Shown here one piece after another: positions 5,091-31,597 of a stretch of 64,000 nt of DNA; within the stretch, counting starts at the first letter, position 1; every line of letters begins with the position of its first letter. The notes under the pieces are model-generated. The model was given only the letters and a program-made list of their open reading frames with translations, searched no databases and had not been told where the DNA came from. This DNA comes from a virus: IMG/VR virus record IMGVR_UViG_3300001373_000002, positions 1 to 64,000 of that record, one strand, 5' to 3'. The position numbers and the translations under genes were made by a program.

Positions 5091-5666
5091 ATGGCAAATA
5101 CAACAAGTACTAAAAAGGTAGAAACTAAAACTGTAGAAGTTACAAATATTGACGAATTGCAACCAGTAATTGAAGTTGCTAAAGAAATTAGAATGGAAGA
5201 CAAAGTTACAATCAGAAGTATTGCTCCTTGGTATACATCTACTCCTAGAGTTACATCTGTTGGCGATATTAGAATTCCACCAAGAGGAACAATGAGAGTT
5301 ACAAGAGAAGAAGCTATCGCACTAGGACAGAGCAGAAGAAAATTAATATGTGGACTAGACGGACGTGGAAGCCATGCTACTTGGTATATCGAAGATGATT
5401 TTACTAGAGAAGAGCTTGATTTTGAAAACAAACAAGAAGGAAGATTACAATCTTTTCTTACTGTAGGAATTATTAAAAAGATGTTTGAAATTCCAAGCAT
5501 ACAACAATTCAAAAATAAATTAGAAGATTTGGTTGCTACAAGAGCAGAAGGAGTAATGCTGCTTGAGGTTATTAGGGATTCAAAAATTAACGATTATGAT
5601 AAAGTTAGAACTTGTGAGTCTCATACAAAATGCAGAGTTCCAGAAAAAATTGTAGCTCGTAGATAA
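5091..5666 (+). CDS. Hypothetical head-associated protein
   Basis: The start is placed at ATG 5091, six codons into the longest frame, because AAGGAG lies 6 bases before it. The 191-residue product begins with a polar Thr/Lys-rich tail, has a central beta-rich region (VTIRSIAPWYTSTPRV ... IPPRGTMRVTREEAIAL) and a helical, charged C-terminal half. Its place directly before the gp6-like connector suggests a head-completion or minor capsid role. I recognise no family. Confidence 0.6.
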   Translation: MANTTSTKKVETKTVEVTNIDELQPVIEVAKEIRMEDKVTIRSIAPWYTSTPRVTSVGDIRIPPRGTMRVTREEAIALGQSRRKLICGLDGRGSHATWYIEDDFTREELDFENKQEGRLQSFLTVGIIKKMFEIPSIQQFKNKLEDLVATRAEGVMLLEVIRDSKINDYDKVRTCESHTKCRVPEKIVARR

Positions 5667-6085: not shown

Positions 6086-7078
6086 ATGAAAGATTGGTAT
6101 TTAGTTGGTTCAAGACCAGTGTATTTATCTGGGGATGAGTCTGATATATTTAATGAATATGCTACAGACGGATTTTCTGAATTGATAGATAGTCCAGTCG
6201 GAAGTAGTGTAGTCTTGTATAGTGACGACTTGTCGAATTACAAAAGCGTAAGATGTATTATAAAAGGAAAGACAAAAGATGGACAAGACGCATCTTTGAA
6301 GTTAGATATATTAACAGAATTAAATGCTATGAATGGATTTTCTTATGTACAATATGACGGATATTTCTGGCTAATAACAAGTAGAAAAAGCAATAATATG
6401 ATAAATCAAAAGGCTTCGCTAGAGTTATGCAATTATGAAATAAAATGGCAAAATGCAAGTGGTCAAATAGTACAAAGAAAAGCTATTGTGACATCGGCTT
6501 CTAAGTATGCAGATGGTGAAGACAAAGGAAAGCAAATGATATTAGGAAGCGACCAATTAGGTATAAATATTCCAATTGATAGCGAATCTCTTAATATTGA
6601 TCATGGTAAAATGTTTATTATAGATAATGGAACTTTAAAAGATACTGTATATCAGTTGACAAGTCCTAACAATGTAGTTAATACATATAATGGATATGGT
6701 ACTACGGCATGGATAGTTCAAGAAATGCAATACGAATTAACCGCAAATGATATATCATATGGAGTAGTTGGATATGTAGAGCCTACTCAAGAAAATCCTA
6801 CTGTTGGAAAATACTCTGTGATAACTGGAAACCAACACATGAAATTAGACAGAACTAGAAAATATTCCGTAGAGTTTTATGATGGTGAAGCATTGCAAAA
6901 TATCACAGCTAATTGGGTGCTAGATGGGCAATATAAGAACTACGTGACAAAAGGTATATCTGGAAATACTATAGAACTCATACTGTATAATGAAGATGCT
7001 ATAGGAAGCACATTAACTTTGTCTGTCACTAATAGTAATTATCAGAGCGAAATTTCAATATTAGTTGAAGGGATTTAG
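6086..7078 (+). CDS. Neck/head-closure structural protein with Ig-like end
   Basis: A 330-residue beta-rich protein. The N-terminal 110 residues (starting MKDWYLVGSRPVYLSGDESD) resemble a head-closure or stopper-like domain in its usual slot. The C-terminal 90 residues (from about 240, with YSVITGNQHMKL, ANWVLDGQ and LTLSVTNSN) look like a bacterial Ig-like domain, common on phage virions where they may bind carbohydrate weakly. It is larger than ordinary stopper proteins (about 110 residues), so a fused decoration function is likely. Role inferred from order. Confidence 0.55.
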   Translation: MKDWYLVGSRPVYLSGDESDIFNEYATDGFSELIDSPVGSSVVLYSDDLSNYKSVRCIIKGKTKDGQDASLKLDILTELNAMNGFSYVQYDGYFWLITSRKSNNMINQKASLELCNYEIKWQNASGQIVQRKAIVTSASKYADGEDKGKQMILGSDQLGINIPIDSESLNIDHGKMFIIDNGTLKDTVYQLTSPNNVVNTYNGYGTTAWIVQEMQYELTANDISYGVVGYVEPTQENPTVGKYSVITGNQHMKLDRTRKYSVEFYDGEALQNITANWVLDGQYKNYVTKGISGNTIELILYNEDAIGSTLTLSVTNSNYQSEISILVEGI

Positions 7079-18860: not shown

Positions 18861-20405
18861 ATGTTACCTACAACTTATACATCTGCATCTAACTTAGTTA
18901 GTAACATAAAAGTTGGATGGAATTTAGGAAATACTTTCGAAAGCGGAAGTACTACAGTTCCTTATGAAGTAGATATATACAAAAAATCATCATATAAAAC
19001 TTGGTTATATTTAGTAGATAGTTATAGTGGGTTTCAAATAATAGGAAGTTCTTCTCAGTCAGTATCATCTGCTGGATTGGCGAATATTTCAACTACAATA
19101 ACATCGATAGACGTAAATGAAAGAACGAGAACTCCATTAAGGTTTAGTATAAGACTTGCAAATTACGCAATCGGTAGCTGTGGAACTAATGAAATAAAGT
19201 TTACAATTTCTAACTTTGTTATAACCAGAGCTGATTCGGTGGTTATTCCAATAAATGAAATGAACGCTAGTTTTACTGGCACAATTTCAACTGGAGGAGT
19301 AGTTTCCGTAGAAGTTCCAGTGTTGAATTTTAGTGCTTATGGACTTGGAACTTTGGCTAATTTTGTTAACGCTACAGTTACATATACATTGCAAATCACG
19401 CAATGGTTAGTGCCTACAAACCCGATAAGTAAAGAAGATTGGACTGAAAGATATTATGGAAATCCAGTAACTACAAAAGCTATGCTACAAAAAGTAAAAG
19501 ATAAAGGTTTTAATGCAATCAGAGTTCCTATAACATGGATATCACATTGGAATAATGCCAATAATACATTCGATACAGAATGGCTAAGAAGAATTAAACA
19601 AATTGTTGATTGGGCGTTTGAAATAGATCTGATAGTTCTTATAAATATTCATCATGATGGTCAGTCTTCTTGGTGGATTAAAGCTTATTTAGACACATAC
19701 AATAAAGATATAGTAAAGGCTAGATTATCAATGTATTGGAATAGAATAGCTTATATGTTTAAGGATTATGATCACAGACTTGTGTTTGAGGGAATGAATG
19801 AAATTTTAGATAGTAGTGGATCTTGGTCTGCGCCTACGCTTGATGAACAAACGTCTTTAAATGAGTTATATCAAGTATTCTTAAACTCGGTGAGAGCAAC
19901 TGGTTATAAAAATGCAGATAGAATATTATCTATAAATACATATGGAGCTGCTACGAACTATAATTATATACAAATGCCTACTGATTCGGTTGCTAATAGA
20001 CTTCTGGTTCAAGTTCATTATTACAGTCCACAAGATTTTTGTTGGTATACTGGAAGTGGTAGTGGAAATACTGCTATGGTTAATTATGACGCAGTTACGC
20101 ATGGAGCTTTATTAGACGGCTTATTTAATGACTTAAAAGTTAAATTTATAGATAATGGAATCCCAGTAATAATCGGAGAGTTTGCTTCGTATTCTAAAAA
20201 TAACACAGCAGAACGAGTTGAACATGCTACTGCATATATATCAAAGACTAAAGCTATTGGAATTAAATGTTTTTGGTGGGATGTTGGTGGCGATGGAACT
20301 AGAACTGAATCTCAAATAACAAGTGGAGCTTTGCTTAACAGACACAATCTTACTTGGTGGTTCGAGTCTATTCCTAATGCTTTGGTCGCTGCTGCGAATA
20401 GTTAA
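18861..20405 (+). CDS. GH5 endoglucanase-like enzyme (tail-associated)
   Basis: A 514-residue glycoside hydrolase family 5 enzyme behind AAAGGAG. It opens with the subfamily mark VGWNLGNTFE (residues 18-27), then has GFNAIRVPITW (226-236), INIHHDG (271-277), acid/base Glu314 in GMNE, HYYSP (396-400) and nucleophile Glu440 in IIGEFA. It resembles clostridial endo-beta-1,4-glucanases. Residues 30-200 are a beta-rich insertion between barrel strand 1 and the next helix, at a different place from the insertion in the other GH5 protein. There is no signal peptide or dockerin, so it is not a secreted bacterial cellulase taken over unchanged. Lying in the fibre block, it is probably a virion or cell-surface glycan depolymerase. 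Confidence 0.9.
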   Translation: MLPTTYTSASNLVSNIKVGWNLGNTFESGSTTVPYEVDIYKKSSYKTWLYLVDSYSGFQIIGSSSQSVSSAGLANISTTITSIDVNERTRTPLRFSIRLANYAIGSCGTNEIKFTISNFVITRADSVVIPINEMNASFTGTISTGGVVSVEVPVLNFSAYGLGTLANFVNATVTYTLQITQWLVPTNPISKEDWTERYYGNPVTTKAMLQKVKDKGFNAIRVPITWISHWNNANNTFDTEWLRRIKQIVDWAFEIDLIVLINIHHDGQSSWWIKAYLDTYNKDIVKARLSMYWNRIAYMFKDYDHRLVFEGMNEILDSSGSWSAPTLDEQTSLNELYQVFLNSVRATGYKNADRILSINTYGAATNYNYIQMPTDSVANRLLVQVHYYSPQDFCWYTGSGSGNTAMVNYDAVTHGALLDGLFNDLKVKFIDNGIPVIIGEFASYSKNNTAERVEHATAYISKTKAIGIKCFWWDVGGDGTRTESQITSGALLNRHNLTWWFESIPNALVAAANS

Positions 20406-20414
20406 AGGAGTTTT

Positions 20415-20870
20415 ATGCCTAAAAGAGAAAGTAAATTTAATATAAGTAAAGACAAATCTAAAAGAACATACAATGGAATAGTTTTTGATAGTGTAATAGA
20501 AATGCTATTTTATATAGACTACATAGTTCCAAGATTAGAAAGTGGAGAAATTTTAAGTGTGAATAGGCAAGCAGAGTATGAGTTGCAACCTAGGTTTGTG
20601 CATAACAATAAAAATTGTAGCGCCATAAAATACATCTCGGATTTCGATGTAACATATAGCGACGGAAAGATTGTAGTTATTGATATAAAAGGTATGGTTA
20701 AGCCTATGGATTCTATAAAAAGAAAGATGTTTAATTACAGATATCCAGATATAGATTTAAGATGGATTAATTTTTCTAAACTAGATGGAGGATGGGTTAG
20801 TCTTGACGTTATAAAAGAAGGAAGAAGTAAGCGCAAGAAAATAAGAGAAGATAAAATAGCTAAAAAGTAG
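20415..20870 (+). CDS. DUF1064 family nuclease-like protein
   Basis: A 151-residue protein with AAAGGAG upstream. It fits the phage DUF1064 family, which has a PD-(D/E)XK nuclease-like core: YNGIVFDSVIEMLFY (Glu in the helix), then ISDFDVTYSDGKIVVIDIKG with the D...DxK pair. The basic C-terminus (RSKRKKIREDK) may bind DNA. It lies at the right edge of the fibre block, an odd place for a nuclease; it may be a free-standing endonuclease linked to movement of the block, but this is inference. Confidence 0.75.
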   Translation: MPKRESKFNISKDKSKRTYNGIVFDSVIEMLFYIDYIVPRLESGEILSVNRQAEYELQPRFVHNNKNCSAIKYISDFDVTYSDGKIVVIDIKGMVKPMDSIKRKMFNYRYPDIDLRWINFSKLDGGWVSLDVIKEGRSKRKKIREDKIAKK

Positions 20871-22444: not shown

Positions 22445-23478
22445 ATGGATGAACAATTAAAGATTTTGCTTGGGGTTGCTTTTGATACTGCTCAAGCTAA
22501 AATACAAGTAAATGCTTTGACTGAAAGATTAAAAAAAGATGCAAAACTAAAGCTTGGAATAGATTTATCAGATAAAGATGCTAATAAAATTGTAGATAAA
22601 TATCTTAAAGATACGCAACGTAAGCAAGAGTCTATGATTAGTTATGTTACCAACAAAAAATTGTCAGACATTAGAAAAGTGGAACAAGCAGAAAAACAAT
22701 CTATAGAGAGTAGAAAAAGAAGTAATATATCTGCTATAGATTTGGAAATAAAAAAGCGTGAAGAAGCAAGTAAAAGATTTTCGTCTCAATTAAAAGAGCA
22801 AATAGTTCAGTCTCAAAAGGATTCGGAATCCGCTCTTAGTATGACTAGCAAAAAGGATAAAGCCTTTTCTTCTATAGATTCGTATATGAATAGCAACACT
22901 AAACTTACAAGAGCGTCGAGGAATGAGTTTGAAGGGTTGAGAAGGCAAATTGCTTTAACTGGAGACGGTAAAGAATTGTCTAGGCTTACAAGCAAGATAT
23001 CAATACTGAAAGATAAGACTAAGTCACTCGGTCAAGTTGGTAAGAGTTCTTTTGACGAAATGAAGAATAATCTTGGGAAAATGGCAACATGGTTAGTAGC
23101 TGGAACTGTTATATTCGGAAGTCAGCAAGCGATACAAAGTATGGTTGATAATGTATTCGAACTTGACAAAGCTATGATTGAGCTTAAGAAGGTAACAGAT
23201 GAAACAAGCAAAAGCTATAATAGTTTTACAGATAATGCATTTGATACCGCAAAGAGACTTGGAACTGGAGTTGCTACATTTGTAAATCAAACTGCTGAAT
23301 GGGCAAAAGCTGGATATAACCTCAAAGAAGCTGCTAAGTTGGCTGAATCAAGTACTGTATTCCAAAACGTAGCAAATATAGACAGCTCTGAATCTGTAGG
23401 AGTTATGATTTCAGCTATGAAGGCTTTTAATATAGAGTCTGAAAAATCTATAGATATTGTGGACAAATTAAATGAGGT
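22445..23478 (+). CDS. Tape measure protein, exon 1
   Basis: Start at ATG 22445 behind GAGGTGAT; the earlier ATG 22424 has no ribosome site. Exon 1 encodes residues 1-344 and two bases of codon 345. It is a long Lys/Ser-rich coiled coil followed by the conserved tape measure core (WLVAGTVIFGSQQAIQSMVD, KATDETSKSY-like segment, GTGVATFVNQTAEWAKAGYNL). The conserved KLNEV motif is cut by intron 1 after GAGGT. After removal of both introns the gene is 6,048 bases and encodes 2,015 residues, with every junction in frame. The product sets tail length and enters the host during DNA delivery. Confidence 0.9.
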
Positions 23479-24966
23479 AAACGCAAACTGCCTCCTCGTA
23501 TAGTAATATATGTAGAAAAAGCTAGCTCAAATAAGGGGAACTCCAGAGATGGACAATCCTTAGGGTAAGAACTGTAATGATAATGTCGATGTACTTTGGG
23601 GGTACAAAAAATAAAAATGGAGATATGTAATATTGAATGATAATTTAGATATAAAATATTCATACTGTATTAAGTGTGATAAGACAATGGATATAAATGT
23701 GTTTTATACTAACAAACAAAATATAAAAAACAGTTATACTAAATGTAGAATATGTACTTGGAAAAATAATAATAAGGGATATAACATAAAAGGGTGGAAT
23801 AGTGTAGATATAGATGATTTTATATATTTTATATTTAAAAATGATATGTGCATTTTAAATAACTTTATAAAAACGCATACCCATATATCTCTTCGTGACG
23901 CAGTAAATGGGTTCTCTGAATTAGCCATTGGTAACAGAAAGACAAGAGTATTTTGTAAATGCGATAGTTGCGGGTGTAATATATTAAAAAAGCCATATTT
24001 ATATAATGACTTATTTAATTATTGTTCTAATAAATGCTATCATGACAATAAAATAAAAACGTCCAAAAGAGGCTCTGAGTGTTATAATTATAATAGTATT
24101 AATTCTAAGTGTTGCAATTGTAATAAAGATATAGTAGTTAAAAAATATAATTATGACAAACTTAATTCTTTTGGAGATAGAAATAATTTCTGTTCACACA
24201 AGTGTTATTATAAATATAGGTCTAAATATTATATAGGTATTAAAAACCATAATTATGGACGAAAACTAAGCGAAGAAGCTAAAAACAAACTTAGAATCAA
24301 CATGATCAATGGCGGAAGACTTGCAAGTAGACTTAATAGTAAAATACAATTAAAAGTAAACAGTATACTTGATGATAATAACATAAGATATATAAGAGAG
24401 TATGTTATTAAGTATTATGCAGTAGATAATTACTTAGTAGATAGTAGACTTATAATAGAGGTTATGGGAGATTATTGGCACTCAAATATTAATATTTACA
24501 ATAACGATGGATATAATATAAATAAAATGCAACAAAAGGGTATCATAAAAGATAAGGCTAAAAATACTTATATAAATAATTATATAGGGACAAATATACT
24601 TTATCTATGGGAACGAGATGTAAATAAAAATATAGAGTTATGTAAACTTTTAATACTTGAGTATATAAAAAATAATGGAGTATTAGATGATTACAACTCA
24701 TTTAATTATAGTATATACAACAAAGAATTATGTATAAATAAAAACATAATAAAACCATATCATGAATATCGACAAAACGAACAAACCCAAATGTTCGAAT
24801 CATTACTAAATCCCTCAACGACCACAGCTATATAGGCGACTATGTAGCGTATGCTAGCCTCATAATAATGATGAAGGTATGGTCTGGACTGCAAATATAA
24901 TCTAAAAATAAAATTGCAGAGATAAGCAGAAATGACTTATCCCCTTGAAAAAGGAGTAACAAAACG
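23479..24966 (+). ncRNA. Group I self-splicing intron 1 in the tape measure gene
   Basis: A 1,488-base intron. The exon end GAGGT pairs with internal guide GCCTC (23490-23494), giving P1 with the required U-G at the splice site. GGGGAACTCC and GGACAATCC (23537-23562) match the P4/P5 region of phage group I introns, and AAGGTATGGTCTGGACT (24874-24890) the P7/S segment. The 3' end has an ATAAG...CTTAT hairpin, a CCCCTT/AAGGAG hairpin and a terminal G at 24966. Joining 23478 to 24967 restores NEV-DNLFSV, matching the usual length of this conserved tape measure segment. The endonuclease gene fills a peripheral loop. Confidence 0.88.
23633..24835 (+). CDS. Intron-encoded homing endonuclease, EDxHD/Vsr-like
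   Basis: A 400-residue protein inside intron 1, started by TTG at 23633 behind GGAG (an ATG nearby is out of frame). The first 190 residues hold several Cys-based zinc sites (CIKCDKT, CRICTW, CDSCGCN, CSNKCYHD, CCNCNKD, CSHKCYY). A NUMOD3-like DNA-contact motif (NYGRKLSEEAKNKLR) follows, then a nuclease core with LIIEVMGDYWHSN, KDKAKN and ILYLWERDV, matching the EDxHD homing endonucleases (I-Bth0305I-like) related to Vsr. It would cut an intron-free tape measure gene so that the intron is copied into it. Base composition is even richer in A+T than the host gene, as usual for such invaders. Confidence 0.82.
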   Translation: MNDNLDIKYSYCIKCDKTMDINVFYTNKQNIKNSYTKCRICTWKNNNKGYNIKGWNSVDIDDFIYFIFKNDMCILNNFIKTHTHISLRDAVNGFSELAIGNRKTRVFCKCDSCGCNILKKPYLYNDLFNYCSNKCYHDNKIKTSKRGSECYNYNSINSKCCNCNKDIVVKKYNYDKLNSFGDRNNFCSHKCYYKYRSKYYIGIKNHNYGRKLSEEAKNKLRINMINGGRLASRLNSKIQLKVNSILDDNNIRYIREYVIKYYAVDNYLVDSRLIIEVMGDYWHSNINIYNNDGYNINKMQQKGIIKDKAKNTYINNYIGTNILYLWERDVNKNIELCKLLILEYIKNNGVLDDYNSFNYSIYNKELCINKNIIKPYHEYRQNEQTQMFESLLNPSTTTAI

Positions 24967-25153
24967 TGATAATTTGTTCTCGGTAAATGCATCTGGAATT
25001 GGACAAGGTTTACAAGTATCGGCTTCTGCTATGGCTATGGCTGGAAACGATATAAATAAAACGATAGCGCTCTTAACTGGTGGTTCTGAACTAACTCAAG
25101 CGCCAGTGGAAATGGGCAACGCAATAAAAATTTTATCTTTAAGGCTTCGAGGT
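24967..25153 (+). CDS. Tape measure protein, exon 2
   Basis: A 187-base exon encoding residues 345-407. It contains the most conserved stretch of tape measure proteins (NASGIGQGLQVSASAMAMAGNDINKT, then GNAIKILSLRLRG). It is bounded by the intron 1 end (G24966) and by GAGGT at 25149-25153. As it is not a multiple of three bases long, skipping it would shift the frame. It is not an independent gene although it has an ATG upstream in the intron at 24932. Confidence 0.88.
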
Positions 25154-26770
25154 AAACACTACATGCCTCCATATCACGAAAGCGATATGCTATGTGCCTA
25201 ACATAGATAACAACTATATAAGTTAAAGCTCTGGGAAGAGTAAGACTTAGGAAAGACTTATAATATTATAATTCCATATAATAAATAAATTAATAAAATA
25301 TGATAAGAGAAGATTACAATAAAGTACTTGAAGAATTTGGACTAATTCCTATAACAAATTGTACTAGCACGTCATGCAAAACTGCGTGCATAAATAAAAA
25401 TGGACTTACCGTAATTGCATGTATTGACAAAGTTAGAAATTCAAACAAAACTCCAAAAGAAATACATGTATGCAATCCATATACTATTGATAACATAAAT
25501 AAGCTTATATTGCGAAACATATCTGATGAATATAAATGCGTATCAGATACGTACACAGACAATAAAACACTTTTAGATATATTACATATTAAATGTGGGA
25601 CTTTATTTAAAATATCTTGGACTAATATTCAAAAAAGAGTAAGCAGAAATGGTTGTGGAGAATTGATATCATGTAATAAGTGTAACACAAAAAGAACAGA
25701 GTCAATGCACGCATTGGTTTTAAAACAAGTAATGTTAAAGGAATTATGTGGTACTGTGGTAGAAGATACATCTTGTATTAACCCTTTGACTGGGAAATGC
25801 CTTCCTACGGATATAGTTAATCATAATTTAAAAATATCAATAGAAATACAAAGCTGGTTTCATGAAAGACCAGAGCAAAAGATAAAAGATGTTATAAAGA
25901 AAGATTATTGGATAAATAACGGATACGAGTTTATAGAGATAGACCATAGAGATGTATCGATAATTGATATGATTAATATATTCATTCCTCATGTAGATAG
26001 TATACCACATTATATAGACACTAACTATTCCAATAAAGTAGATCTGAATGCTGTAAAAAAACTTCTAGACAAAGGCACTAAAATAAAAGATATAGCTAAC
26101 AGATTAGGTGTTAAAATACATAGAATTTACGACTGTATATATATTAATAGTTTAAGTTATCCAGACGATTATGTTAAAATGGGAGAAATCGGTGTCGTGC
26201 AACTAAACTTAAATGGAGAGTATATTAATAGATTTGATTCTATTAAAGATGCCAGTAGGTATAATAATATTAAGTACCACAATATATCTCATGCTATGAA
26301 TAAAAAAAGAGTGTATTCATCTGGATACTTATGGGTAAAAGAATGTGAATACGATAAAAATTTTAGTGATTATTATGTTAAGAATATAAACTATGATGTA
26401 AATGTGCATAAATACAGTTTAAAAAATGAATATATATGTTCGTACGATAGTATATTGGAAGCAGAAGTTGACACTGGAATAAAAAAGAATATGATATATG
26501 CAGTAGCGTTTAAGAATAAAAGAAAAACTACAGGAGGATTTATATGGAAGAATACTCTTGTATAATATTATAAGAATCCTCAGAGACTGCGGGATGTATA
26601 TGGTAACATATATATTGAAGTTGTTTTCCCTGTCGCAAGACGAGAATAATATACAGTCCGAACCTCATGCAATAATCCGATATAAAAAAGAAACATGAGA
26701 ATAAGCCAGAAATGACTTATCGCCATACTTAGTATGGTCAGTAGCCAGTCATGGCGAAAGTAACAGAATG
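25154..26770 (+). ncRNA. Group I self-splicing intron 2 in the tape measure gene
   Basis: A 1,617-base intron. Exon 2 ends in GAGGT, which pairs with GCCTC (25165-25169), the same P1 as in intron 1, and both introns begin AAAC. AATATACAGTCCGAACCT (26647-26664) matches the conserved P7/S segment, with GACTG at 26585-26589 as its likely partner. Towards the 3' end an ATAAG...CTTAT hairpin like that in intron 1 and a CGCCAT...ATGGCG hairpin precede GTAACAGAATG; the terminal G is 26770. Joining gives RLRG-MKGELDKLGE, the expected tape measure sequence. Confidence 0.88.
25300..26565 (+). CDS. Intron-encoded homing endonuclease with NUMOD1 repeats
   Basis: A 421-residue protein in intron 2. The nuclease core around residues 175-235 (ISIEIQSWFHERPEQKIKD, KKDYWINNGYEFIEIDHRDVS) carries the acidic and HD residues of the EDxHD group. 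A helix-turn-helix follows (VDLNAVKKLLDKGTKIKDIANRLGV), and the end has two NUMOD1-type modules (FDSIKDASRYNNIKYHNISHAM and YDSILEAEVDTGIKKNMIY) with GYLWVKE and GFIWKN closings. It differs in layout from the endonuclease of intron 1. No clear ribosome site precedes ATG 25300, so translation may be weak or limited to unspliced RNA. Confidence 0.8.
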   Translation: MIREDYNKVLEEFGLIPITNCTSTSCKTACINKNGLTVIACIDKVRNSNKTPKEIHVCNPYTIDNINKLILRNISDEYKCVSDTYTDNKTLLDILHIKCGTLFKISWTNIQKRVSRNGCGELISCNKCNTKRTESMHALVLKQVMLKELCGTVVEDTSCINPLTGKCLPTDIVNHNLKISIEIQSWFHERPEQKIKDVIKKDYWINNGYEFIEIDHRDVSIIDMINIFIPHVDSIPHYIDTNYSNKVDLNAVKKLLDKGTKIKDIANRLGVKIHRIYDCIYINSLSYPDDYVKMGEIGVVQLNLNGEYINRFDSIKDASRYNNIKYHNISHAMNKKRVYSSGYLWVKECEYDKNFSDYYVKNINYDVNVHKYSLKNEYICSYDSILEAEVDTGIKKNMIYAVAFKNKRKTTGGFIWKNTLV

Positions 26771-29700
26771 ATGAAAGGCGAACTAGATAAATTAGGCGAA
26801 GAATCTGCTGGAGTAGAGTCGATTAGTAAAATGCAGACTCAAATACTAAACCTTACCAAAGGACAAGTAAATATTTTTAAAGATAACGGAGATTTTAAAG
26901 ACACTTACACTATAATGGAGGGTATATCAAAGGTATTCTCAGATTTAAGCCAAACAAACCAAGCAGAGTTATTAGAAACTGTATCTGGAAAACAAAGAGC
27001 AAATCAGATAGCAGCCATAATACAATCTTTTCAATCTGGTCAAGCACAAAAGGCGTATCAAGCATCGTTAAATTCGACTGGTTCGGCTATGAAAGAAAAC
27101 GAAGAGAGAGCCAAAGGTTTAGAATATAAAATGGCTCAATTAAAAGCTACCATAGAAAAACTGTCTTCTGTTGTGATAGATTCTGATTTCTTAAAAACTC
27201 TTATGGATTCTGGAATAGGAGCTTTAGATGTAATTACTAAATTAATTGATAAATTTGGACTTATGAATATCGCTCTAGTGACATTAACATCAGTACTTAG
27301 CGCTAAAGGAATTGGGGTTGCTCAATTATTTAGTGGATTAAGTGGTGGAACTAAAATCGGCTCTGGTATGTTCGAAGATATTAACAAATCTATCAAAGAA
27401 TATAATAATAGCTTATCAAAATCAATAGATATACAGAATAAAAGCATAGACTCGATATCGATAGAAAACGAATCTCTTGGAAACTACCTAAGAACTAAGA
27501 ATGGTGCAACTGCTAGTACTGGTGAATATGTAAAAGGTATGGCAAAAGCTAGAATAGCTACAATAAAAATGGCGGCGGCTACAATGGCTATGAATGTTGC
27601 GATGACTGTGGCTGTGTCTGCGATAATTGGATTGGCAGTGTCTGAATTTCAAAAACTTACAACAGCGACTACAGAATCTCTTGACAAGTTCACCGAAATG
27701 ACTGATAAGCGTAAAGAAGAATCTGCTAGTTTAGACAAACAGATATCAAAATATAAAGAACTTAGATCTATAATCGAGAGCAATGCATCTACAACTGAAC
27801 AAGTCAATACTGCCAAAAGTCAATTGTTGGAAATACAAGACAACTTATTAAGCAGTTATTATGACGAAGCAGATGGTATTGATTTAGTTAATGGCAAAAT
27901 GGACGATCAAATAGCTAAGATGAAAAAGATATCGGTAGAAGCTTCAAGAAAATATACTATATCTAATTTTGATAGTTATGAAAAGTCAAGAAAGTATTTG
28001 GAAGAAAACAAATGGTATAGTGCAATTCCTGCATTTTCAAAAACTGGAATAAAGAAAGATGCTGCCGACATAGGCGAAGACTTCTTTAAAAAGCAAGGAT
28101 TTACAACTGAAAAATATACTGCTTGGGATAAGAGTAACCAAAGTTTAAAAAATCCTATGGGAACAGCAGAGATGTTGAAAGTGTACCTTCCAGCTTCGAC
28201 TAGAGAAGAGGCTATAAAGAAGTTTAACAACTTGTTCGACGCATTAAACAAAGAGTTCGGAAGTAATAATCCTAAGATAGCATCGCTTAAAAGTGCCATA
28301 TCTAAACAGTTGGAAGATTATGGTCTTGACGAAGAGGCTATAGGAAAACAAAGAGCTAATATTGAAGAATATCTTAAGAATGTAGTAATATCTGATGATA
28401 GGCTCAGACCTATATACCAAAAGGCTCTTGACGCAAAAGATGCTTACGATACTGCTGTTAAAGCTGGTGACGCAGAAGCTATAAAATCAGCTCAGAATAA
28501 TATAAAGGCTGTTAAAGAAGACGCTAAGATAGCAGAAGGTATTATAGAAGGATCTGGAAAAATATTTTCTAATTTATTTAGTGGCTTAGACTTATCAACT
28601 AAAGTTTTAGAAGAATTTAATGTAGTAGCAAAAGATACGTCGTTTAATATGTCAGAAGACGATGTTAAGCTATTAGAGACTTATAATACCAAGCTTAAAG
28701 ATATTTATGACAAAATGCAATCAATGGACAAACTTAGTCAGTCTGATGCATTAGCTATAATAACACAATATAGTGACTTTGATTGGAACTCTGTAGGAGC
28801 TATTAACAAAGACGGATCTATAAACGTCGAAAATATGGCTACTGGAATGAGTAAATTATACAATTCCACTCTTAAGTTGGCACAAGAAGCATTTCCTAAT
28901 TTATCAAGTGCTATGAACATATTTAAAAGCGAGGCTTCAAATCAAGACTCTATAATAAAATCTTCACTTGACGACATAAAAGAACTTGAAGACGTAAGTA
29001 AGAAATTGGCATCAAAGCAATCATTATCTGGTGAAGAAATGGCTGCACTCATAAGCAAATATCCGACACTTAATAGTCTTATAAAGAAAACATCAAAAGG
29101 TTATTCATTGGAAGAAGATGCTTTAAACGAACTTATACGTGCTAGAGGTTCTGAGGGCAATACTGCTATCGCTTCAAGAGTTAAGGCTTCTAAGGCTATA
29201 ATACTTACTGCCAAAGCCAATATAGATGCTATAAATAAAGAATTGAAAGCTATTCATAATGCTACTGTGGGATTATGGAAATATGCCGAAACTGCTTACT
29301 CTGTATTTGCAATGTTAAATAATGGTAAATTCGTAGATTGGGATACTCTAGTTGATAGAATTGGTAAGAGAATGATAGATACTAACCAAAAAGAAATATC
29401 TAAACAAAACAAAGAGTTAGATAAATTATATGGCGAAATGTCTGATATTGCTACATCTACCGATAAAACTAAAAAAGACAAGACTAAGAACACAGCTACG
29501 CTATTTGATTGGATTGCTAAAAAGCTTGATATAATGGCTAAGGCTACAGAAAATGCTAAGAATAAAATCGAAGATTTCTATAGTTTAGTTAATAAGAATA
29601 AAGCTACAAAAGATGCCATATCTAGTATACGAAAAGAGATTGACGCAAATAAAAGAGCTATAACAGAATATGGTAAATTGGCTGGAAAGGTCAGTCTTAG

Positions 29701-31597
29701 CAAAGGATGGAAAGATAAAGTAAAAAATGGCGGATATTCTATTTCTAGTGTAAGTGACGAAAATACTATAAAGAAAATTCAAGAATATCAAGAATATTAT
29801 GACAAGATAAATCAATCAAAAGAAAAGATATCGCAATTAAAGAAAGAAGAGTTAGAACTTTATAGACAAAGACTTGAAAATATAAAGACATTCTACAATC
29901 TTCAAAAGTCATATCGTTCGGCTAGCACAGATACTATTCAGTCGAGAATAGATTCAAGGTCTAATTTGGGAGCGTCTACTACTTCGGCTAGCTACAAGAA
30001 AGACTTAGAGAATCTAAGAAATTCACAACAAAAAGAGTTAAAGATTATAAAAGAAGAGCGTACTAAGTATAAAAAGGATTTGGACGTACTATATAAATCT
30101 GGAAATATTAGCGGAACTGCTTATGTAGAAGGATTGACATATGTAAAAGAATTAGATTCTGCTATAATAAACATGAACTCTTCGATTGCTGATACGCAAA
30201 ACTCAATAGATAACATTAATTATAATAAGCTAATAATTGCTAACGATTCTCTTGACAATAGTATAAACAAGCTTAATAATAGTTTAGACGTGAAACTTAA
30301 AAAGGGAATGAAACTTAGTACATCTGATTATACTAGCATAATATCTCAATATGAAAAAGTAGGAAGCAATATAAAGTCTCAGATTTCCGAAGCTAAAAGG
30401 TTGCAATCTAAAGAAAATGTAAATTCAGATATATGGTTAAAGTATGCAAGTGATATATCTTCGCTAGAGAATGAACTTACCGATGTTCAGATATCCATAA
30501 TTGATACAAAGACAGCGATGTTTGAATCATTAATATGGCAACCGATAGAACGTGCTAATCAAAGTGCTGAAACGTTAAGAGGTAATCTGTCCTCTTTGGC
30601 TAATCTTATAGACGATTCTGATATGTTTGATAAGAGTGGCAATATAACAGCTTTGGGTGTAGCTAAACAATCATTGTTACAACAAGAATTTGATAACTCT
30701 AAGAAGTCTGTTAATGAATATGTTAAAGAAATAGATAAGTTAAATACTGCATATAAAGGTGGCAAGACTGGACTTACTAAAGATCAATATACTGAAAAGT
30801 TGCAATCTTTAAGAAGTGGATTATTGTCTACTGCATCTGAAACCAAGTCTTTATATGAACAACTTAATAAACTTGAAAAAGATAGAAGTACAAAAGAGAT
30901 AGAAAGCTTAAAAGAGTCTATTGCTTTACGTGAAAAGGCTTTGCAGAAAAAGAAAGATTATTATGACTACGACAAACAGATTTCAGAAAAGACAAAAGAT
31001 ATAAGGTCGTTGCAATCACAAATAATTTCTCTTGAAGGCGTTACTACGGCAGAAGGTAAAGCTAGAAGGGCTAGACTTAGATCTGAATCAGAAAGGTTAG
31101 GATCTGAACTTAAGGATATAGTAAAAGATCATCAAATACAAGTTATAACTGATGGATTTAATAATCTTAGCGAAACATTAGATACTCAACTAGAAGAACT
31201 TAATAATTCATCGTCTATATCAGCAGAAATGCTTATGCAAATAAAAGATTCTATACTTGGCGGAACTGGCAATTCTTTAGATATTAGTAGGAATAGCTTT
31301 CAACAAGTGGGCGATATAATAAATGACAGTTCTATGTCAAAACGAGATAAGACTTCTCAATTAAAAGGTATAAAGGGGACTTTTAGAAATTCACTTCCGT
31401 CTTCTTTAAGCAATTCAATAGACTCGTCTAAATTATCAAGTTCTGGAGCTTTGCAGAATATAAATATAGATAATAGTATTACTGTTCAAGGAAGTATGGA
31501 TAGTGCAACAATGTCACAACTCAAAGGTCTTAAAGGACAAATAGTGAATGATACAATTAAAGAAATTAAGAGAAATTTAGAAAGAGCTGGTTATTAA
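26771..31597 (+). CDS. Tape measure protein, exon 3
   Basis: Encodes residues 408-2015. It begins MKGELDKLGEESAGVES, the standard continuation of the tape measure core, followed by a hydrophobic region (residues about 650-700, MAMNVAMTVAVSAIIGLAVSEF) that may cross the host membrane, and about 1,300 residues of Lys/Ser/Asp-rich coiled coil with a KDYYDYDKQI-type repeat near 1,830. With the common ratio of about 0.15 nm per residue, 2,015 residues predict a tail of roughly 300 nm. The end is followed by a strong hairpin (31605-31634) and Dit. Confidence 0.92.
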   Translation: MKGELDKLGEESAGVESISKMQTQILNLTKGQVNIFKDNGDFKDTYTIMEGISKVFSDLSQTNQAELLETVSGKQRANQIAAIIQSFQSGQAQKAYQASLNSTGSAMKENEERAKGLEYKMAQLKATIEKLSSVVIDSDFLKTLMDSGIGALDVITKLIDKFGLMNIALVTLTSVLSAKGIGVAQLFSGLSGGTKIGSGMFEDINKSIKEYNNSLSKSIDIQNKSIDSISIENESLGNYLRTKNGATASTGEYVKGMAKARIATIKMAAATMAMNVAMTVAVSAIIGLAVSEFQKLTTATTESLDKFTEMTDKRKEESASLDKQISKYKELRSIIESNASTTEQVNTAKSQLLEIQDNLLSSYYDEADGIDLVNGKMDDQIAKMKKISVEASRKYTISNFDSYEKSRKYLEENKWYSAIPAFSKTGIKKDAADIGEDFFKKQGFTTEKYTAWDKSNQSLKNPMGTAEMLKVYLPASTREEAIKKFNNLFDALNKEFGSNNPKIASLKSAISKQLEDYGLDEEAIGKQRANIEEYLKNVVISDDRLRPIYQKALDAKDAYDTAVKAGDAEAIKSAQNNIKAVKEDAKIAEGIIEGSGKIFSNLFSGLDLSTKVLEEFNVVAKDTSFNMSEDDVKLLETYNTKLKDIYDKMQSMDKLSQSDALAIITQYSDFDWNSVGAINKDGSINVENMATGMSKLYNSTLKLAQEAFPNLSSAMNIFKSEASNQDSIIKSSLDDIKELEDVSKKLASKQSLSGEEMAALISKYPTLNSLIKKTSKGYSLEEDALNELIRARGSEGNTAIASRVKASKAIILTAKANIDAINKELKAIHNATVGLWKYAETAYSVFAMLNNGKFVDWDTLVDRIGKRMIDTNQKEISKQNKELDKLYGEMSDIATSTDKTKKDKTKNTATLFDWIAKKLDIMAKATENAKNKIEDFYSLVNKNKATKDAISSIRKEIDANKRAITEYGKLAGKVSLSKGWKDKVKNGGYSISSVSDENTIKKIQEYQEYYDKINQSKEKISQLKKEELELYRQRLENIKTFYNLQKSYRSASTDTIQSRIDSRSNLGASTTSASYKKDLENLRNSQQKELKIIKEERTKYKKDLDVLYKSGNISGTAYVEGLTYVKELDSAIINMNSSIADTQNSIDNINYNKLIIANDSLDNSINKLNNSLDVKLKKGMKLSTSDYTSIISQYEKVGSNIKSQISEAKRLQSKENVNSDIWLKYASDISSLENELTDVQISIIDTKTAMFESLIWQPIERANQSAETLRGNLSSLANLIDDSDMFDKSGNITALGVAKQSLLQQEFDNSKKSVNEYVKEIDKLNTAYKGGKTGLTKDQYTEKLQSLRSGLLSTASETKSLYEQLNKLEKDRSTKEIESLKESIALREKALQKKKDYYDYDKQISEKTKDIRSLQSQIISLEGVTTAEGKARRARLRSESERLGSELKDIVKDHQIQVITDGFNNLSETLDTQLEELNNSSSISAEMLMQIKDSILGGTGNSLDISRNSFQQVGDIINDSSMSKRDKTSQLKGIKGTFRNSLPSSLSNSIDSSKLSSSGALQNINIDNSITVQGSMDSATMSQLKGLKGQIVNDTIKEIKRNLERAGY

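Follow-up and report, generated by a model that had tools for sequence, protein, structure and literature searches.

Introns in phage tape-measure protein (TMP) genes, and paired introns within a single phage gene, are already known. In phage ICP1, the TMP gene consists of four exons and three introns with HNH endonucleases (PMC10448857). The ribonucleotide reductase gene of phage Twort carries two group I introns (Landthaler 2002, as cited in PMC3984707), and paired group I introns are found in the terminase and DNA polymerase genes of phage Moonbeam (PMC4299906). Introns also interrupt TMP in the Staphylococcus phages Quidividi, Terranova and Twillingate, where their boundaries could not be placed (PMC6597688).

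We analyzed a window of 64,000 bases, which are bases 1-64000 of a 113,327-base IMG/VR virus record. The phage TMP gene in it very probably carries two mobile group IA introns, each of which arrived on its own. Like ICP1, the window phage has a TMP gene with several introns, which in ICP1 are spliced from the mRNA, and in both systems the junctions stay and the endonuclease content varies (PMC10448857). It differs from ICP1 in phage, host and endonuclease families (PMC10448857). Splicing in ICP1 was demonstrated by RNA-seq and RT-PCR (PMC10448857), whereas splicing in the window is predicted from the sequence; two ribozyme lineages are resolved in the window. Twort, as far as the citing account describes it, and Moonbeam resemble the window in that a single essential phage gene carries a pair of group I introns. 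The target gene differs, and the intervening exon in the window is just 187 nt. Unlike in Quidividi, Terranova and Twillingate, the intron boundaries in the window can be placed, thanks to a copy at the same site and to relatives whose sites are empty. Our analysis adds the exact junctions, the rejection of the hypothesis that one intron is a copy of the other, and a map in which sites, ribozymes and endonucleases are separable. The parts of the gene are as follows.

22445-23478, plus strand: TMP exon 1, 344 codons and 2 nt, last bases ..AATGAGGT
23479-24966, plus strand: intron 1 (1,488 nt), assigned to group IA, at TMP codon 345, ending ..AACAAAACG, omega G at 24966
24967-25153, plus strand: TMP exon 2, 187 nt, final bases CGAGGT
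25154-26770, plus strand: intron 2 (1,617 nt), assigned to group IA, after TMP codon 407, ending ..AACAGAATG, omega G at 26770
26771-31597, plus strand: TMP exon 3, 1,608 codons and the stop

Joining 22445-23478, 24967-25153 and 26771-31597 gives 2,015 codons with zero internal stops. As the preliminary description had claimed, the joins 23478/24967 and 25153/26771 restore this 2,015-residue frame together with the KLNEV-DNLFSV and RLRG-MKGEL motifs. Without splicing, the exon 1 frame reaches a stop after seven intron codons (..KLNEVNANCLLV). A ribosome-binding-like sequence, AGAGGTGAT, lies immediately 5' of the ATG at 22445. The tape-measure family phrog_4211 of PHROGs matches exon 1 with an E value of 6e-43 and exon 3 with 3.7e-37. 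PF10145 covers both junctions of the spliced protein and scores 71.1 bits, compared with 30.8 bits for exon 1 by itself.

Relatives with empty sites support the same junctions. A spliced stretch of 364 residues has matches in 93 annotated phage records, 80 of which cover at least 80% of the query in one place and are therefore intronless there. The alignment with uninterrupted viral relatives, at 46-52% identity, is continuous across both junctions, and about two dozen viral and prophage loci likewise lack a break at either one. At the 3' splice sites, the introns of relatives also finish AACA(A/G)..G, which supports the window 3' splice sites.

The strongest evidence for the second junction is an occupied relative. 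In what follows, L-numbers are labels of related loci compared in this analysis. The prophage-like contig L130, part of a bacterial MAG, carries an ORF-less intron of 398 bases at exactly the second TMP site. Its TMP reads CGTATTCGAGGT, followed by an intron beginning AAACTTTTATGCCTCC and then by ATGAAAGATGAACTG. Spliced in frame, it encodes MRIRGMKDEL, with the junction between RIRG and MKDEL, aligned to LRLRGMKGEL in the window. The L130 intron has the same GAGGT exon end, AAAC start and GCCTC guide as intron 2, and is 73% identical to intron 2 minus its ORF. L022 has a 5' site and guide identical to those of intron 2 at the same codon, and the codon 407 site is occupied in L022, L023 and L130. 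No other phage was confirmed to carry an intron at the exact position of intron 1; the closest ones, in L014, L072 and L081, lie 4 nt downstream. An intron of another type in L074 is close to the intron 1 codon, at a position placed only approximately. By these comparisons the predicted junctions are more than chance. The open frame, the intronless relatives and the same-site intron of L130 bear out the claim that TMP is split by two ORF-bearing group I introns at exact junctions.

Two further genes in the window lie close to TMP. A GH5 cellulase gene at 18861-20405 (Pfam Cellulase, E 9.2e-50; no PHROG) lies immediately 5' of TMP, amid tail genes. It may be either unusual cargo or a tail-associated depolymerase. 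A gene resembling DUF1064/Holliday-junction resolvases is found at 20415-20870, inside the structural region.

Each intron contains a complete predicted core composed of P1, P3, P4, P7, P7.1 and P9. The elements located are listed below.

23490-23494, plus strand: intron 1 guide GCCTC, pairing with exon GAGGT 23474-23478 (P1)
23521-23526, plus strand: intron 1 P3 5' strand GCTAGC, partner 24853-24858
24820-24884, plus strand: intron 1 P7 GACCA/TGGTC, 24820-24824 with 24880-24884
24921-24941, plus strand: intron 1 end hairpin GATAAGCAGAAATGACTTATC, a generic P9-type element
25165-25169, plus strand: intron 2 guide GCCTC, pairing with exon GAGGT 25149-25153 (P1)
25209-25215, plus strand: intron 2 P3 5' strand AACAACT, partner 26619-26625
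26585-26658, plus strand: intron 2 P7 GACTG/CAGTC, 26585-26589 with 26654-26658
26701-26720, plus strand: intron 2 end hairpin ATAAGCCAGAAATGACTTAT

P7 of intron 1 encloses the P7.1 hairpin (24827-24848, with a GCGA loop), the P3 3' strand and P8. P7 of intron 2 encloses P7.1, the P3 3' strand and P8 (GUC-GCAA-GAC). In both introns the 5' exon U is paired as G-U in P1 (GAGGU/GCCUC). The stems covary among the introns compared, with 7 different sequences in 11 introns for P1, 13 in 16 for P3, 10 in 16 for P4, 5 in 13 for P7 and 7 in 8 for P9. The stem tables contain one non-standard pair in 346, in P1, and all pairs in P3, P4, P7 and P9 are standard. The tables were compiled manually once the sequences had been inspected, a step from which only the RNAalifold-based models are free. 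A P10 was looked for in intron 1, and no convincing one was found.

Both introns are assigned to group I, subgroup IA, because P7.1 is present. P7.1 is a feature of IA, and the assignment also leans on general knowledge of group I introns. P7.1 also appears in the RNAalifold consensus of R1, a covariance model described below. The class features of subgroup IA were taken from PMC3984707. A search with Rfam RF00028 reported neither intron, at gathering or at relaxed thresholds (up to E 5). The same model scores relatives without an ORF, from Lysinibacillus and Brochothrix phages, at 26-58 bits, some of them below 50, and the intron ORFs of about 1.2 kb split it in the window. A threshold score with RF00028 is no defining property of group IA introns. 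A blastn search with the intron 1 5' end gave chance matches only.

The likeness between the two introns in one gene raised the question of how they are related. Maximum-likelihood trees were built from the 3' halves (P7 to hairpin) of TMP introns and of a broad hairpin-defined set. Intron 2 groups with introns of L022 and L023 (codon 407), L072 (codon 346), L019, L018, L087 (codon 323) and others. Intron 1 groups with introns of L023 (codon 289), L072 (codon 289) and L074 (codon 407). Forcing introns 1 and 2 to be sisters costs 68 log-likelihood units and is rejected (p-AU 0.0005). When 3' halves are ranked, each window intron has, among 20, 12 relatives closer to it than the other window intron, which comes 13th of 20. 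The comparison of cores to which the preliminary description had pointed, made here on 3' halves, places the two introns, both assigned to IA, in different clades and not as each other's closest relatives.

Covariance models built without the window introns separate them in the same way. R1, the intron-2-type model, scores the 3' half of intron 2 at 123.9 bits (E 7.5e-30) and that of intron 1 at 65.8 bits (E 5.7e-15). R2, the intron-1-type model, scores the 3' half of intron 1 at 120.6 bits (E 3.9e-26) and that of intron 2 at 25.0 bits (E 5.5e-4). Scanning the 113-kb record with R1 and R2 revealed no further credible copy. The TMP intron of Thomasclavelia phage TR-TP1 (L018, PQ571309) has an intron-2-type core and scores 124.9 bits with R1, which was built with it. 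It differs from the window introns in position and endonuclease, and was deposited as split genes with no intron annotated. The TR-TP1 deposit splits both DNA polymerase and TMP (L017, L018) into separate genes on either side of HNH endonuclease ORFs, and both interruptions look like group IA introns. In a related record, the exons of an intron-split gene were deposited as separate 'subunit' CDSs. In Lysinibacillus phage LysYB1 (L016), we observed an unannotated group I intron at 1715-2047. It lies within the major capsid gene or immediately 3' of it, and an HNH remnant follows downstream.

Introns 1 and 2 are, as judged from these trees and models, relatives in one broad class and not mutual copies. 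An older connection is possible, although we consider it rather unlikely: both TMP intron clades may descend from one ancient entry into TMP followed by spread among sites, which would make them deep paralogs older than this phage. Both clades are found at several TMP sites, and a tree that unites the TMP introns in a single clade survives the AU test (p-AU 0.344). However, the non-TMP introns L075, L076, L079 and L084 are placed among TMP introns in one tree, support for the deep branches is weak, and the P4-P6 regions are unlike.

The preliminary description had proposed that one intron probably arose from the other by spread to a second GAGGT. Such a copy would be recent; reverse splicing or ectopic homing would have carried it 187 bases, and it would have received a new endonuclease afterwards. 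The proposal drew on features that are all present in the window: GAGGT paired with an identical GCCTC guide, AAAC directly after GAGGT in both introns, and an ATAAG..CTTAT hairpin near each 3' end, all within one gene. Both introns also fall within a larger supported group (98/96). As evidence of copying, however, the guide and the hairpin do not hold. Exon end and guide covary in relatives (GAGGU/GCCUC, CGGGU/GCCCG, UAGGU/GCCUA, GUCGGU/GCCGAC and UUCGGU/GCCGAA). Almost every relative to which a guide was assigned has GGU at the exon end and GCC in the guide; the other guide bases track the exon (UC, CG, UA, GAC, GAA). Since GGU/GCC is near-invariant in this set, the identical guides in the window agree by just two free bases, and we rejected the view that an identical guide is improbable. 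The exact 21-mer of the intron 1 hairpin recurs in 44 viral contigs; there it marks the ends of group I introns, mostly outside TMP, and L030 alone among these loci matched TMP. We rejected the end hairpin as a sign of copying, as it is generic. The rejected sisterhood, the 12 closer relatives of each intron, the separation by held-out models and the relatives that share the intron 2 site in L022, L023 and L130 also stand against recent copying, which we regard as very improbable. The endonucleases point the same way, since the nearest relative of each is found in another phage, at an identical TMP site or one 4 nt away.

It is equally hard to credit that the interruptions are decayed or non-splicing, with TMP broken or made from fragments: splicing of the window introns is predicted from DNA sequence and Rfam misses both, but the catalytic stems are all intact, the guides are matched, the omega G is present, the three exons are open and the flanking residues are conserved.

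The ORFs within the introns were analyzed separately.

23633-24835, plus strand: intron 1 ORF, 400 aa, TTG start after GGAG, 3' end overlapping P7
25300-26565, plus strand: intron 2 ORF, 421 aa, with a NUMOD1/I-HmuI-like DNA-binding region, an HTH and a putative nuclease region

The intron 1 ORF contains CxxC zinc-binding-like segments, a weak NUMOD3-like match and a C-terminal Vsr-like/EDxHD domain. Its predicted catalytic domain resembles I-Bth0305I (PDB 3r3p), a Vsr-like EDxHD enzyme, with a Foldseek E value of 3.9e-5, a TM score of about 0.7 by target length and a profile E value of 0.0012. The pLDDT of this domain is about 70-89 in most blocks and 44-47 at residues 281-300. The modeled catalytic fold and the location in an intron are as in I-Bth0305I; identity over the domain is 25%, and the DNA-binding arms differ, being CxxC segments in the intron 1 ORF. 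It therefore resembles an EDxHD/Vsr-like homing endonuclease with an I-Bth0305I-type catalytic fold, and is putatively one. At 83640-83700 of the same virus, beyond the window, a 60-bp stretch matches the DNA of the zinc-binding-like part of this ORF at 74%, possibly marking another endonuclease gene. In the intron 2 ORF, NUMOD1 (PF07453) scores 41.1 bits against a cut-off of 22.8, and parts of the ORF match PHROG HNH endonucleases with E values of 1e-9 to 1e-8. Its AlphaFold model has a pLDDT of 36.5, too low for a confident catalytic fold. The two ORFs had been said to encode different endonucleases, which agrees with a profile comparison that found no similarity between them.

The closest relative of the intron 1 ORF is the ORF of the codon-346 intron of L072 (38% over 350 aa, E 2.5e-63), followed by the ORFs that L030 and L012 carry in introns near codon 396; the cores around all three are of the intron 2 type. 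For the intron 2 ORF, the nearest relative is the ORF in the codon-407 intron of L023 (39% over 311 aa, E 2.5e-70), which shares its site and core type. Viral scans with each intron ORF as a single query found nothing, and tblastn of the ORFs in phages gave weak relatives only. These patterns suggest that each endonuclease is tied to its target, and that the ribozyme around the intron 1-type endonuclease differs between phages.

TMP introns are also frequent in relatives, at approximately codons 289, 323, 345/346, 396, 407 and 450. In L074, three introns fall inside a span of about 190 coding bases, at codons ~345, 396 and 407 (2876-5206 of L074), and its codon-407 intron has an intron-1-type core. 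Two TMP introns each are present in L022, L023, L072 and L087. In two exon-motif searches, about 8 of about 34 distinct TMP loci were interrupted between codons 230 and 600; as the searches began from an exon motif, these loci were not chosen for introns. Further interruptions in them lie near codons 380, 492, 511 and 526. Some of these interruptions are candidate introns, among them those of L102 and L127; the one in L108 is a group I intron near codon 492 (6249-6628; RF00028, 53.2 bits). Two other RNAs were observed at these loci, a RAGATH-18 RNA upstream of the L108 intron (5360-5430) and a Clostridiales-1 RNA (RF01699, 105 bits, minus strand) at 1457-1616 of L131, set into the P9 loop of a TMP intron of the intron 1 type. 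Where the host gene was identified, intron-2-type cores are all in TMP, including L021 and L026 near the TMP C-terminal end, whose exons were judged TMP-like by eye; this exclusivity is provisional because the sample was partly selected by hairpin patterns.

With independent arrival of the two introns as the preferred reading, each ribozyme would bind guanosine in P7, cut after the U of GAGGU and ligate the exons in the transcript, so that full-length TMP would come from spliced RNA only. The intron ORFs would be homing endonucleases whose targets are two conserved stretches of TMP coding sequence in co-infecting phages that lack the introns; repair would then copy the intron into the cut TMP. 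The two residents would come from two lineages, both with TMP as a home. Endonuclease genes would have moved between the lineages, as the intron 1 endonuclease has a relative in an intron-2-type core in L072, four bases off the intron 1 site. More generally, and at somewhat less than an even chance in our estimate, TMP in large phages of Clostridia and Bacilli may serve two group IA lineages as a dedicated home within which they shift between numerous positions, with endonucleases that are tied to sites but switch ribozyme lineages, and with separate histories of site, ribozyme and endonuclease.

Exact junctions have now been placed for TMP introns, at which earlier annotations failed for some phages. 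TMP genes in such phages are at risk of being mis-annotated as two or three shorter proteins. The loci compared here form a natural experiment, in which the same target sites hold, depending on the phage, one ribozyme lineage or another, related endonucleases housed in different ribozymes, ORF-less introns, or nothing. This set makes it testable whether endonucleases invade existing introns, introns are swapped at a fixed target, or introns move between nearby sites.
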